The notes below the pieces were generated by a model. That model did no database searches and had not been told where the DNA came from. It saw only the letters and a program-made list of their open reading frames with translations. Shown here one piece after another: positions 6,155 through 10,561 of a stretch of DNA of 64,000 nucleotides; position 1 is the first letter of the stretch; the number at the start of each line of letters is the position of its first letter. Both the position numbers and the translations under genes were made by a program. Source of the DNA: Halovivax ruber XH-70 (GTDB taxonomy: Archaea > Halobacteriota > Halobacteria > Halobacteriales > Natrialbaceae); NCBI RefSeq assembly GCF_000328525.1, contig NC_019964.1, forward strand, positions 930,001 through 994,000. Direction: 5' to 3'.

Positions 6155-6298
6155 TCACGCTCCCTCCTGAAGGAATCGCCCCTCCTGCTCGTAGATCGCC
6201 ACCAGTTCTGTGAGGAACTCCTCGATCGTCTCGTCCTCCTCTAAGTGACCCTCGATCCGCGCGGTGAGGTCGTCGTCGAGTTCGATCGTCGTGGGCAT
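6155..6298 (-). CDS. Small antitoxin-like protein (47 aa), paralogue of 2199-2348
   Basis: A 47-aa protein (MPTTIELDDDLTARIEGHLE..., ending RFLQEGA) with the same strand-helix-helix plan and the same LQEG tail as the protein at 2199-2348. It is the first gene of a two-gene unit with the PEBP protein; the intergenic gap is one base. A TATA box lies 28 bases upstream, giving a leaderless message. No toxin partner is seen. It may be an orphan regulator of the RHH/AbrB size class; that is inference. Confidence 0.7.
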   Translation of the reverse strand: MPTTIELDDDLTARIEGHLEEDETIEEFLTELVAIYEQEGRFLQEGA

Positions 6299-6318
6299 CC
6301 GGAACCCGTACACCGACC

Positions 6319-6331
6319 AGATGAATAAAGG
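6319..6331 (-). promoter_or_regulatory. TATA box for the 6298-5656 unit
   Basis: On the minus strand CCTTTATTCATC is centred about 28 bases before the ATG at 6298, the spacing of leaderless haloarchaeal promoters. The same bases form the left part of the 25-bp repeat that recurs at 9659-9683, so a promoter fragment has been duplicated on the far side of the island. Confidence 0.5.
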
Positions 6332-6343
6332 CGCGGCCGTCGC
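6319..6343. repeat. 25-bp direct repeat, left copy
   Basis: AGATGAATAAAGGCGCGGCC is identical to 9659-9678; the following five bases match at four positions. The two copies flank the AT-rich block with the IS6 remnants and halocin-like gene. Here the repeat lies in its natural context as the promoter of the gene at 6298, so this copy is likely ancestral. Confidence 0.7.
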
Positions 6344-6755
6344 CGCACGATACCTCGACAAGAGTGAAGGGTTGAGTCGTGAACGATATTCACACATTGA
6401 AGCCGGTGAACTCGGTGATATCGCAACTGAAGCGCTTGAAGCGGTAGACGGTGAACTTGATCTACTGGTGAGTAGAGTCGCTTAGGTCCAAAAACGACCG
6501 GATAATGGCCAAGGTCGTGACTGCTTCTCCTGTGGGTATAGCAGCCCGTATGAGCCTGTGTGAAGGCCGGCGAAACCTCATCAGATCCTTCATGACGTTA
6601 TTAAATTGTATGTTCTAAAACTATATTTCATTGCCTGTTGGCTGATTTAGAACGTCCGCTTCTTTGTCTTGTACTAATCAACGTAATTGTCCAAAGACAC
6701 GGGTAAGCAAATGCGGCGATCAATTCAATCCCGTGCATAGTTGGTTAACTAACTA

Positions 6756-6998
6756 CTACTGCCCACTTGTTTTGAATATATTTATTGGAATAAATCTTCC
6801 AAACATAAACTTGAATATCAAAAGCAACCACACAGCATAGAACACGCTAACGGCTAAGAACCTCTCTGGAGTTTTGGGGGTGTAATCACTATACGGGAGA
6901 ATCACCGTCAGAAGACCGGTCAGGAGCATCGCTCCAGCTAATGCTCCAAGAATTTTTCCCATAACTATCGCAAAGTCTTTCGGGTCTCTCCAACGCAT
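6756..6998 (-). CDS. Small two-helix membrane protein, AT-rich
   Basis: This 80-aa protein has two hydrophobic segments, LGALAGAMLLTGLLTVIL (about residues 18-35) and VSVFYAVWLLLIFKFMFG (about 50-67), separated by a polar loop. It starts MRWRDPKDFA from an ATG at 6998. Its base composition is far lower in GC than the flanking chromosome, matching the island. I do not recognise the family. It might be an immunity or accessory protein for the halocin-like gene nearby, but nothing in the sequence shows this. Confidence 0.5.
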   Translation of the reverse strand: MRWRDPKDFAIVMGKILGALAGAMLLTGLLTVILPYSDYTPKTPERFLAVSVFYAVWLLLIFKFMFGRFIPINIFKTSGQ

Positions 6999-7230
6999 AG
7001 ATTATCTCCAATCTCCATCCTCTTAGTGATTGTGGATGATTATTAAAACGGAGTTAGAGTTATTTTTCACCTTGAATTTAGCATTACCACTTGCCATTAG
7101 GGTTTTTCGTTGGGGAATTGATGGTAATCAAAATCAGTTGGTACCTGTCATCGCTACAGGTTCGCCCGTAATACCCGGCGCTGTTCAGATTAGAGAGTAA
7201 AGGAGCGAGGCGGTGGCAGTTTTAGTGGAC

Positions 7231-7920
7231 TTGCCGAAAACCACTCGTCTCACAGGCTACAGCCAGACGTTCAGTTAGGTTTTGTGGAGCGCGAAGCGGC
7301 ACCGGGCGAGCTGATACGCCTCCGTATTCACCTGCATCTGCGTTGGGTGCCGCTTGCAGATATTGTTCCCATCCTGGAGAAATCCGGTGTCAAACGCGCC
7401 CGGTCAACGATCAACAACTGTGTGCAAAAGGCCGACTTACAGCCCAAAAGCCGGAAATAGCCGAATCACGTCGCTCTCGACAAGACCGTGAGCCACCTCA
7501 TTGATCAGCGTACTGGCTGTACGCCGCGGTCGATTCTGAGACGAACGAATTCTTGAACGTCAGGCTTCTTTCCGACGCGAAATACTGCTGTCACGGAGTT
7601 TTTCTCTACGAATTTAGCGAGAAACACGACATCGATGACGTCCTGAGAACTGCGGTGCAGCTCTTGTGGGCTCACAAGCCGCATGAGTCTTGCGAACACC
7701 GCGTTTTTCATTGACTCTGGACCCTGTCTTCTCGCCAAATTACACCGCCGAGGCTTCCGATTTCGACACGAACGACACGGTATTCGAAACGCTATCGAGC
7801 GTGACTTTCAGGAGATCAAACGCCGCACCTACCAGTTCAGCAATTGCTTCAGAAAGGCCGATCCGAAGACCGCCGGAAACTGACTCCAGAACTATGCATA
7901 CCTATCGAATTACTCGAACT
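7231..7920 (+). pseudogene. IS6-family transposase remnant, left copy
   Basis: Reading through several frameshifts and stops, the strand encodes the order expected of haloarchaeal IS6 transposases: PKTTRLTGYS, then LGFVEREAAP, DIVPILEKSGVKRARSTI, VQKADLQPKS, NHVALDKTV, LYAAVDSETNEFLNVRL, then RHERHGIRNAIERDFQEIKR and RRTYQFSNCF. A TGG-to-TGA change interrupts the end and several frame changes lie in the middle, including the DDE region. It is beyond doubt a pseudogene. Confidence 0.8.
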
Positions 7921-8001
7921 GAACAATACTGTATCTCTCTGGCACACTTTGTATGGGTTTAGTATATTGAAAATCACAGTCTCAAGTATGATCTTGTAAT
8001 T

Positions 8002-8931
8002 TTAGATAGGTACTTGGTCAGCGAATTCATCAATTATGTCCGTTACAATATCTACAACCGCTTCCCCCGTACACTGGCCCACATTGAAACAGCCGATATC
8101 TGCCAAAATAGTTGCAACCGGTACGGCAGGAAATCCGAGGCACACTAGGAAGGCACAAGCGACAAAAACCGGTGGTGCACTTACAGTGAGGCCACAGGGT
8201 ACGCATCCGACTGCTTCAACGATACAAAAGATAATGTCATCTTGATCACAAGATGATTGCACCCCCGTGCCGTTCGAACTACCTGAGAAGTGAGTAGTTT
8301 CACGGTCGGTTATCTCTAATCCAGATTTAGCGGCAGCCAATCCCTTCTGTTTCGTTGCAAGCTGTGCCTTAGCAGGTTCCGCTTGGACGCGGTCAAATCG
8401 ACGATTTTCGGTGTCGATATGGCTAATCGAAACCTTTCCAGTCTCCGGTTGAACGGCTACAGTTGTGTTCCCTCGATCCAACGCTCTTGTATCAATGGAG
8501 TTGAGGAATACCTCAGTCTCTTCATCGGTTGCAGTCCGCGTCAGAACCGTTTTATCGTCCGTTACCCTCAACTGTGCTTGAGTTCCTTCAACCCAGTCAT
8601 CGTCCACGCCGGGAACCCAGTTGTTGAAATAGAATCTTGCGGCATCTGTCTCTTCTGGTGGGCGGGTAAGAACTGTACCGTGATTTGCAGGAATAACGAC
8701 AACGCTTCGATCTCCCCCAACCACACGGGCGCTCTCTGCACTTAATTTAAGACTCGGTACCTCTCTTTTGAGTCTTTTTATATGTTGTGATTGTAGCAAC
8801 TGATCAATATCAACGGATGCCTCTTTTGGAGATGCACCGACTGCGGCAGTCATTCCAATGAGTGATGCCCCACCAGAGGCCGCAATATTCCTTAGAACTT
8901 TTCGTCGATGTGGGTTGTTGTTTCCTCCCAT
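8002..8931 (-). CDS. Tat-exported halocin C8-like precursor (8-Cys hydrophobic C-terminus)
   Basis: A 309-aa protein. A Tat signal is visible at the N-terminus (RRKVLRNIAASGG, hydrophobic to about residue 33). The middle 180 residues are polar. From residue 228 a hydrophobic C-terminal domain carries eight cysteines (228, 236, 243, 246, 259, 264, 281, 287), including the CVPCG pair. This plan (Tat signal, large pro-domain, about 80-residue Cys-rich hydrophobic C-terminus) matches the precursor of halocin C8, where the C-terminus is released as the antimicrobial peptide and the pro-part gives immunity. Halocin C8 itself has ten cysteines, so the peptide would differ. The gene is AT-rich and lies between two IS6 remnants. 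Activity is not shown. Confidence 0.7.
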   Translation of the reverse strand: MGGNNNPHRRKVLRNIAASGGASLIGMTAAVGASPKEASVDIDQLLQSQHIKRLKREVPSLKLSAESARVVGGDRSVVVIPANHGTVLTRPPEETDAARFYFNNWVPGVDDDWVEGTQAQLRVTDDKTVLTRTATDEETEVFLNSIDTRALDRGNTTVAVQPETGKVSISHIDTENRRFDRVQAEPAKAQLATKQKGLAAAKSGLEITDRETTHFSGSSNGTGVQSSCDQDDIIFCIVEAVGCVPCGLTVSAPPVFVACAFLVCLGFPAVPVATILADIGCFNVGQCTGEAVVDIVTDIIDEFADQVPI

Positions 8932-8955
8932 CGCGTCAGTATGTATTTCTTCCCT

Positions 8956-8968
8956 GTATATAAATTTT
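8956..8968 (-). promoter_or_regulatory. TATA box of the halocin-like gene
   Basis: On the minus strand TTTATATACAGGG is centred 30 bases before the ATG at 8931, the normal distance for a leaderless haloarchaeal message. It suggests the gene still has its own functional promoter despite the decay of the flanking transposases. Confidence 0.6.
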
Positions 8969-9119
8969 TAATTTCTAACGGCAGTGCTAGCCATTGAATA
9001 GCTAATCCATTTAATGGCCACGTGTACTCGAAGAACCGATTCGGCCAAGACCAACTTCCCAGTTATCTCGTAGATCTCCTGGGCGAGAGTGGTTAGGGTC
9101 GCGAGCAATTTGGCGAACA

Positions 9120-9638
9120 CCGCCTTGCACTCTTGGACGTCACCAAGATCATCGTGAACACATTCTGTTTAGTCCGTCGTCAGTTGACATCGTCGACACG
9201 ACTGGCTCACAACTGGGTGTATATGGTGGAAATACAGCCAAAACCGGGACAAAATCCGGATCACGTTGCGGTCAACTATACGGTGAGCGGTACTGGCTGT
9301 ACGCCACAGTCGATACGGACATGAACGAATTGCACCATACATAGCTTGTACCAACCAGAAACAAGGCAATACCGAGCGCGTTCTTCGCTGAAGTGCGGGA
9401 CAAACACGATGTCGACGATGCAAACTACCTTATCGATGGCGATCAGTCGCTGCAGCACGCCTGTCAGCGTCCAATTTTCAGATACGAGAGACGCGCCGAA
9501 CGAAATAGCGTCGAACGAGTCTTTCGAGAAATCAAACGATGGATGTCTTCGTTTTCCAACCCGTTCAGTCAGGCGCGACGAGGAACCTCTGACCAGTGGA
9601 TACGATCGCTAGCATTTGTATGGAATCAGCTTATCTGA
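9120..9638 (+). pseudogene. IS6-family transposase remnant, right copy
   Basis: The remnant retains EIQPKPGQNPDHVAVNYTV in one frame, then after frame changes VRDKHDVDDANYLIDGD, FRYERRAERNSVERVFREI, MSSFSNPFSQA and DQWIRSLAFVWNQLI with a normal stop at 9638. These are the C-terminal motifs of haloarchaeal IS6 transposases, including the glutamate of the DDE triad (NSVERVFREI). The N-terminal third is degraded. It has the same orientation as the left copy. Confidence 0.8.
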
Positions 9639-9658
9639 AAATGACCCCCTATACTGAC

Positions 9659-9683
9659 AGATGAATAAAGGCGCGGCCATCGC
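9659..9683. repeat. 25-bp direct repeat, right copy
   Basis: This matches 6319-6343 at 24 of 25 positions and begins about ten bases after the right terminal repeat of the IS6 remnant. Here it has no gene behind it, so it is the displaced copy. The 3.3-kb spacing is too large for an 8-bp IS6 target duplication and suggests recombination between relatives or a larger duplication. Confidence 0.65.
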
Positions 9684-9782
9684 GTCCCGTGGTGTGTTGG
9701 GTGGCGATGGTGGGGTTCACGGAACAGTCACCTCACAGGACCGGCCGACGCCGAAAACACATCCTTTCCTACTAGTCGTCGA

Positions 9783-9795
9783 TAATTATATTATG
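9783..9795 (+). promoter_or_regulatory. TATA box of RNA/zinc-finger cassette A
   Basis: TAATTATATTATG is a strong TATA region in otherwise GC-rich DNA. It predicts transcription starting near 9814, just ahead of the first stem of the RNA element at 9817. The equivalent box in cassette B (62358-62367) has the same spacing to its own first stem. Confidence 0.6.
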
Positions 9796-9813
9796 CTTCG
9801 CTTCGATGTGCTG

Positions 9814-9966
9814 AACGGAAGCCACGCTCTCCATCACCTGCGCGGGGACATGCGTCTCAGAAATGTCCCGGGTGCTACTACCACCCGAGACGTGGTTTCC
9901 GAAAACCCTGCGGGGTTTTCAGTCACCATGATACGAAACTCACCATCGAGACAAAAAGGTCTCGCA
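9814..9966 (+). ncRNA. Candidate structured RNA element, copy A
   Basis: Four stems can form. P1 pairs 9817-9826 with 9891-9900 (ten pairs, one G-U) and encloses P2, 9869-9874 with 9882-9887. P3 pairs 9901-9908 with 9913-9920 around a TGCG loop and abuts P1. P4 pairs 9947-9952 with 9959-9964 around AAAAAG. The second copy at 62207-62337 forms the same four stems, and changes in P1 and P3 preserve pairing. It may be a structured mRNA leader or a separate small RNA; no T-rich terminator follows, which favours a leader for the downstream genes. I do not know an Rfam family for it. Confidence 0.65.
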
Positions 9967-10068
9967 CAGCAGTGGCATCGACAGCCGAAGCGCTACCCCG
10001 AATTCGTCTGGGATTCGAAACTCGGCGGGGATCTGCTTCTCAGCCTCGGCAATCTGAAGGTGAATTGA
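9928..10068 (+). CDS. Small basic ORF coupled to zinc-finger gene, copy A (46 aa)
   Basis: The frame starts at an ATG just after stem P3, begins MIRNSPSRQKGLA and is rich in Arg, Lys and Gln. It ends one base before the zinc-finger ATG. In cassette B the same frame begins MFRNTPSRQKGLA and its stop overlaps the next ATG. Of the first 13 residues 11 are identical, and the nucleotide differences there are partly silent. It may be a leader peptide that couples translation, or a real small protein. P4 lies within its first codons, so part of the conservation may be structural. Confidence 0.45.
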   Translation: MIRNSPSRQKGLAQQWHRQPKRYPEFVWDSKLGGDLLLSLGNLKVN

Positions 10069-10069
10069 G

Positions 10070-10297
10070 ATGGGTCGCTACGAGTACGACGAGCCGTTGC
10101 CGGATGAGCCGTGCGAGCGCTGTCGCACCGATCTGACGGAGACGCACTGGGCCAAACTCCGGGCTGTCCACGACGGGCCATCCGCCAGCGGGTATCGAGA
10201 TTCGGAGAAGCGGGTTTGCGTGGATTGTCTCGCGGCGCTCGGGATGCTGGAGTTCGAGATGAACGGTGCAGCTGGGGGTGGACAGAGATCGGTGTGA
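10070..10297 (+). CDS. Small zinc-finger protein, cassette A
   Basis: A 75-aa protein with two Cys pairs, CERC at 15-18 and CVDC at 50-53, giving Cx2C-x31-Cx2C, almost certainly one zinc site. The protein at 61860-62096 has the same spacing and similar flanks (CYRC... and CCPDCAAAMNLSEF against CVDCLAALGMLEFE). A purine-rich GAAGGTGA lies 7-14 bases before the ATG, a usable ribosome site, consistent with translation from a leader. Such haloarchaeal micro-proteins are mostly uncharacterised; RNA or protein binding is plausible. Confidence 0.7.
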   Translation: MGRYEYDEPLPDEPCERCRTDLTETHWAKLRAVHDGPSASGYRDSEKRVCVDCLAALGMLEFEMNGAAGGGQRSV

Positions 10298-10561
10298 GGT
10301 GACCGCCGACGGTTAGGTTGGGGGACTTACCTAGTACCGTTCCATCGATGGTCGTGAACACGACCGGTTGAGTTGGGTTTTCTGTTGTTGCCGGTTGGTC
10401 TGTTACTTTTGAGCCGTCTCTATGATTAGAGGGGTTACGCGATTTTATCTCGGGAAGTCGCGTGTTCTGCTATCTTCCGTGAACACGATGAATTTGGTTG
10501 CGTGTGCATAATTGGGACCCGGATTTTCTTAGCGTGTGACCCTTGGGTGACTATTGAGAAG

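Follow-up and report, generated by a model that had tools for sequence, protein, structure and literature searches.

A predicted halocin S8-family precursor gene and a candidate immunity gene in Halovivax ruber XH-70

The precursor gene and its surroundings

The window analysed here, a 64-kb stretch of the 3.22-Mb single-contig genome of Halovivax ruber XH-70, carries at positions 8002-8931 (minus strand) an open reading frame of 309 aa that starts with ATG and runs without interruption. Residues 1-33 (8833-8931, minus strand) read as a twin-arginine (Tat) signal region with an RRKVL motif (MGGNNNPHRRKVLRN...AVGA) and a predicted cleavage point, and the arginine pair of the motif is invariant in the alignment of all full-length relatives. 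A pro-region of about 190 residues follows (residues 34-225; 8257-8832, minus strand). The final 82 residues of the protein are hydrophobic and contain eight cysteines, at positions 228, 236, 243, 246, 259, 264, 281 and 287. This layout agrees with the first-pass annotation of the gene, which had described a Tat signal, a large pro-region and a hydrophobic C-terminus of about 80 residues with eight cysteines. The same annotation had called the gene intact and preceded by a good TATA box, and both points hold. The box, TTTATATA when read on the minus strand (8957-8964), lies 25 nt before the ATG, which is the distance expected of a leaderless haloarchaeal transcript. Both of the nearest relatives (loci L122 and L045) keep it at an equivalent site, and the Halobacterium gene for halocin S8 has a similar AT-rich box upstream.

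Full-length relatives of the precursor were found at 62, 33 and 32% identity, and the pairwise dN/dS between the gene and its Natrarchaeobaculum copy is 0.36. The reading frame is therefore not a chance one, and 8002-8931 is a genuine gene. Scans of the 309-aa protein against Pfam and NCBIfam gave no meaningful match, and a sequence search of the PDB with the precursor found none. Pattern-based scans likewise gave no match, whether the genome contigs were scanned with the precursor as a single protein or the viral contigs with the family alignment.

A gene for a membrane protein of 80 aa, predicted to have two helices (6756-6998, minus strand), lies 1 kb from the precursor gene, on its 3' side and on the same strand, with an insertion sequence between the two. 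This insertion sequence is an IS6-family remnant (7177-7930, plus strand) that has kept both ends, and its transposase is broken by several in-frame stops and a frameshift. On the other side of the precursor, an ISH29-like IS6-family remnant at about 9208-9646 (plus strand) is truncated at its 5' end, and its 3' part alone is left. The IS6 transposase profile PF13610 fails to detect either broken copy; both were recognised via annotated plasmid copies. The gene had earlier been placed inside a dead composite transposon with both flanking IS6 transposases broken. The broken state of the two copies is borne out, but the composite structure is not, as the copies belong to different IS6 subgroups (the left is nearest a Natrinema-type copy and the right nearest ISH29, the two being 68% identical over 138 bp only) and no 8-bp target-site duplication was seen. 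A 26-nt direct repeat (96%; window 6318-6343 and 9658-9683, 3,340 bp apart) flanks the membrane-protein gene and the precursor. In addition, two similar small proteins are encoded on the minus strand at 2199-2400 and 6155-6397, with the common pattern I..DDL..R...H...DET.EEF..ELV.IYE.EG.FLQEG.

A block spanning 7092-9671 of the window is missing from the same-genus genome G071, where the sequences corresponding to window positions 6746-7091 and 9672-10547 are adjacent (locus L113). The breakpoints of this block do not coincide with the ends of the insertion sequences. The block was either gained in the host or lost in G071, and we lean towards loss or repeated reshuffling. If it had been gained inside a composite element, the linkage to the 80-aa gene in other genomes would be a coincidence, while loss in G071 would carry no such implication. 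Our first reading, in which the two genes form an ancestral pair with the insertion sequence inserted between them, competes with this empty site in the congener.

True relatives of the precursor are present in roughly 8 of 391 genomes, rather than being ubiquitous beside housekeeping genes, and include copies in Natrarchaeobaculum, Haloferax larsenii, Haloferax mediterranei (pHME505) and Halorhabdus. The closest is the plasmid copy of Natrarchaeobaculum sulfurireducens, the one at 62% identity, whose host belongs to the same family (Natrialbaceae). The precursor is absent from all four same-genus genomes. This absence would suit a decaying, non-functional relic that came with mobile DNA, is unexpressed and has merely been spared so far, as would the frameshifts in the relatives at L045 and on pHME505, the truncations in those of G375 and G113, the decay of the adjoining IS copies and the low G+C of the island (43-53% around the precursor versus 63% for the window). 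We regard this as rather unlikely, since the 309-codon frame and the TATA box are intact beside IS copies with several stops, and the dN/dS of 0.36 also argues against it. Selection for the cargo, which had been suggested from the intact gene between broken transposases, is weakly supported, as the measured constraint covers mostly the history before the present arrangement.

Kinship with halocin S8

Halocin S8 and its precursor ProS8, from Halobacterium, were reportedly described by Price and Shand in 2000. A tblastn search of plasmids with the precursor matched 311-aa Halobacterium proteins at only 24% identity over 92% coverage (E 2e-14), in the records of Halobacterium salinarum pKBTZ03_437 and of megaplasmid 2 of Halobacterium sp. 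GN101. These products carry SDCNINSNTAADVILCFNQVGSCALCSPTLVGGPVP at residues 231-266, followed by a 45-residue tail; we take this 36-residue segment to be the halocin S8 peptide. Its calculated mass of 3581/3577 Da fits the published 3.58 kDa of halocin S8 (PMC8699383), and the identification is well supported. Halobacterium sp. GN101 is listed as the halocin R1 producer (PMC11509114), and we infer that the S8-type precursor on its megaplasmid is the halocin R1 determinant. This precursor is homologous to the gene in the window, and differs from it as that of halocin S8 does.

The likeness extends beyond the pro-region. When the C-termini were compared without it, S8 matched P0001 at an E value of 4.3e-5, the best of 2,499 sequences that included 50-fold shuffles, and the C-terminal profile of the family found S8 at E 3.2e-9, no shuffled sequence scoring better than 0.04. 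The cysteines are spaced 7-6-2-12-4-16-5 in the precursor and 12-6-2-13-4-17-9 in S8; in the alignment of the two, seven cysteines occupy invariant columns and the eighth pairs up by its place in the order. The two precursors are further alike in their length (309 and 311 aa), in the Tat signal and homologous pro-region, in a peptide that starts near residue 226-231, and in eight ordered cysteines of similar spacing. Apart from the low identity, they differ in the length of the peptide, 36 residues in S8 against about 30 predicted here, and in their neighbouring genes. By sequence, the precursor is a member of the halocin S8 family, and the S8 precursor is its closest characterised relative, albeit a distant one. 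Given this homology, the idea of a new peptide class put forward in the first-pass annotation finds no support. The gene brings a new host genus into the S8 family and, along with its relatives, provides a definite candidate for the immunity protein as well as a homologous pro-region for use in searches.

Alignment with the 36-residue halocin S8 predicts a mature peptide of approximately SSCDQDDIIFCIVEAVGCVPCGLTVSAPPV (residues 226-255; 8167-8256, minus strand), with four cysteines, which would be cut out from within the precursor; its end point is approximate. The residues before the predicted peptide read ..VQ, and those before halocin S8 read ..LQ. Residues 256-309, together with the stop codon (8002-8166, minus strand), make up a C-terminal tail with four cysteines, the equivalent of the 45 residues behind halocin S8, in which there are also four. 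An S8-type precursor might instead be cut once, with the whole C-terminus (residues 226-309, eight cysteines) as the active product. All eight cysteines are conserved in the family, those of the tail included, and the tail is conserved as much as the predicted peptide, which is itself no more conserved than the rest of the precursor. However, active halocin S8 has 36 residues and ends ahead of the tail, as judged from its published size (PMC8699383, PMC11509114), and a single cut appears improbable to us.

The downstream gene and a proposed mechanism

The 80-aa two-helix protein is encoded 3' of the precursor, on the same strand, in the window and at L122 and L045, so that a two-helix gene follows the precursor at all three closest loci despite their differing wider surroundings. 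The two other genomes are those of Natrarchaeobaculum, where the homologue stands 320 bp downstream of the precursor, and G091, where a transposase gene intervenes. Of about 382 genomes, 4 contain both the precursor and the two-helix gene (hypergeometric P 1e-5), although the copy in one of them, G113, is a precursor remnant that lies far from the two-helix gene. To our knowledge, halocin S8 has few described relatives and no known immunity gene. We consider the 80-aa protein most likely to be the immunity protein of the producer. It may be a neighbour instead of a partner, given the 1-kb gap and the insertion sequence that separate the genes in the window, and given that its family also occurs with no precursor nearby, in the congener G071 and in at least five other places. 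The pro-region had been proposed as the immunity protein in the first-pass annotation; this is a property of halocin C8 that finds no support here, and the membrane protein linked to the precursor has the better claim.

In H. mediterranei, Halobacterium and Halorhabdus, small membrane proteins of unrelated kinds come after the precursor, and a comparison of the downstream membrane proteins of different loci found no homology among them. Within 450 bp, small multi-helix ORFs lie on the 3' side of 14 of the 23 superfamily precursors and on the 5' side of 4 (Fisher P 0.006). The helices were counted with a simple rule based on hydropathy, and not every locus is independent of the others. The same counts at 22 C8-domain loci, to which both provisos apply, gave multi-helix ORFs 3' in 13 and 5' in 5, and none within 450 bp 3' at the three loci nearest halC8 itself (L017, L018 and L027). 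A membrane protein of about 300 aa with a GENRCE.CT motif was considered as a dedicated partner and dropped, its family being so widespread that 351 of 382 haloarchaeal genomes have it. This protein is found near S8-, wide- and C8-type precursors (L122 8079-8981, L123 3578-4537, L093 2300-3208 and L029 700-1497), and has no Pfam or NCBIfam name.

We think it probable that the locus encodes a microhalocin precursor of the S8 family together with a membrane immunity protein. Transcription of the precursor gene would start from a TATA promoter of its own, probably giving a leaderless transcript, and the product would be exported via the Tat pathway. Outside the cell, a first cut after the pro-region, between ..GVQ and SS or nearby, and a second cut about 30 residues on would free a peptide that is hydrophobic and acidic and is predicted to have two disulfides. 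The freed peptide may kill related haloarchaea, and the downstream two-helix protein on the same strand would most likely protect the producer. There are nine subtilase matches in the genome, and these subtilases could provide the processing protease. In H. mediterranei, halocin precursors are cleaved by subtilase-type proteases (PMC12893001). Compared by description, the scheme is like that of HapP (HFX_0892) and HalH4, in which an inactive secreted precursor is cut by an extracellular serine protease/halolysins (PMC12893001), whereas the activity of HapP resides, unlike that proposed here, in an N-terminal fragment.

The wider precursor family and halocin C8

A broader family of Cys-rich precursors in haloarchaea has a pro-region homologous to that of the precursor (hhalign probability 98.5%, E 2e-15; hmmsearch E 1e-10 to 2e-5). 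Members of this family are Tat-exported and end in another Cys-rich module, with no detectable likeness between their C-termini and that of the precursor. Two of them are present in the same genome (G000:102502 and G000:2518974), and some adjoin housekeeping genes. A secreted, Cys-rich product that serves as something other than an antibiotic, such as a signal or a surface protein, and that has ancestry in common with halocin S8 would fit a pro-region held in common with this commoner family, with its other Cys-rich C-termini and its occasional housekeeping neighbours. Yet the distribution of the precursor is sporadic, on plasmids and in IS-rich islands, and the homology to a known antibiotic runs directly through the peptide part, which leaves little room for such a role.

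The gene had first been described as halocin C8-like; a secreted halocin precursor with a Cys-rich C-terminus is what we also find, while homology to S8 takes the place of membership in the C8 family. Halocin C8 (ProC8) follows the same general plan of Tat export, a long pro-region and a hydrophobic Cys-rich C-terminus, but a C8-family precursor, in which the entire 80-residue C-terminus would be the antibiotic and the pro-region its immunity protein, is very hard to credit here: the curated C8 domain model TIGR04449, which picks up 43 of the 391 genomes from the class, has no match in the precursor or anywhere in the genome, profiles of the C8-domain precursors and of the precursor family have the Tat signal alone in common, the pro-region and C-terminus compared separately with 25 C8-domain precursors gave hhalign probabilities of 0.2% each and hmmsearch matches no better than shuffles, and there are eight cysteines as against 10 in C8, differently spaced. 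A Tat signal with a Cys-rich C-terminus by itself thus does not mean halocin C8.

More tentatively, microhalocins may be modular, one conserved pro-region being combined with varied Cys-rich modules, and the locus-specific 3' multi-helix proteins may serve specifically for immunity, in many C8-domain relatives as well. Besides the S8 type, the modules include a C..C..SPTGVGA..C type, which occurs in 17 further precursors examined, two of them in the Halovivax genome. C8-style immunity through the pro-region would then be exceptional, and the three halC8-like loci examined lack a 3' multi-helix gene.

In the Halovivax genome, the pro-region paralogue at L084 3985-5208 (G000:C1 near 102502), whose C-terminus carries another Cys-rich module, is followed after 3 bp, on the same strand, by a gene for a 69-aa two-helix membrane protein, and the two look like a second precursor-immunity pair. 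Beside the second wider-family relative in this genome, at L085 4933-5976 (G000:C1 near 2518974), stands a gene whose 165-aa product is conserved; this gene also adjoins the relative in L091.

Two Haloferax loci are also worth recording. H. mediterranei is reported to have further antagonistic precursors that are unidentified (PMC12893001). On its plasmid pHME505, the annotation of an S8-family precursor (L121 4956-5936) covers only a fragment of 111 aa, owing to a change of frame inside the gene, whose Cys-rich part can be read in another frame. In Haloferax larsenii, a single cluster (L077 7968-13226) holds two precursors that differ from each other, along with a related pair of multi-helix membrane proteins.
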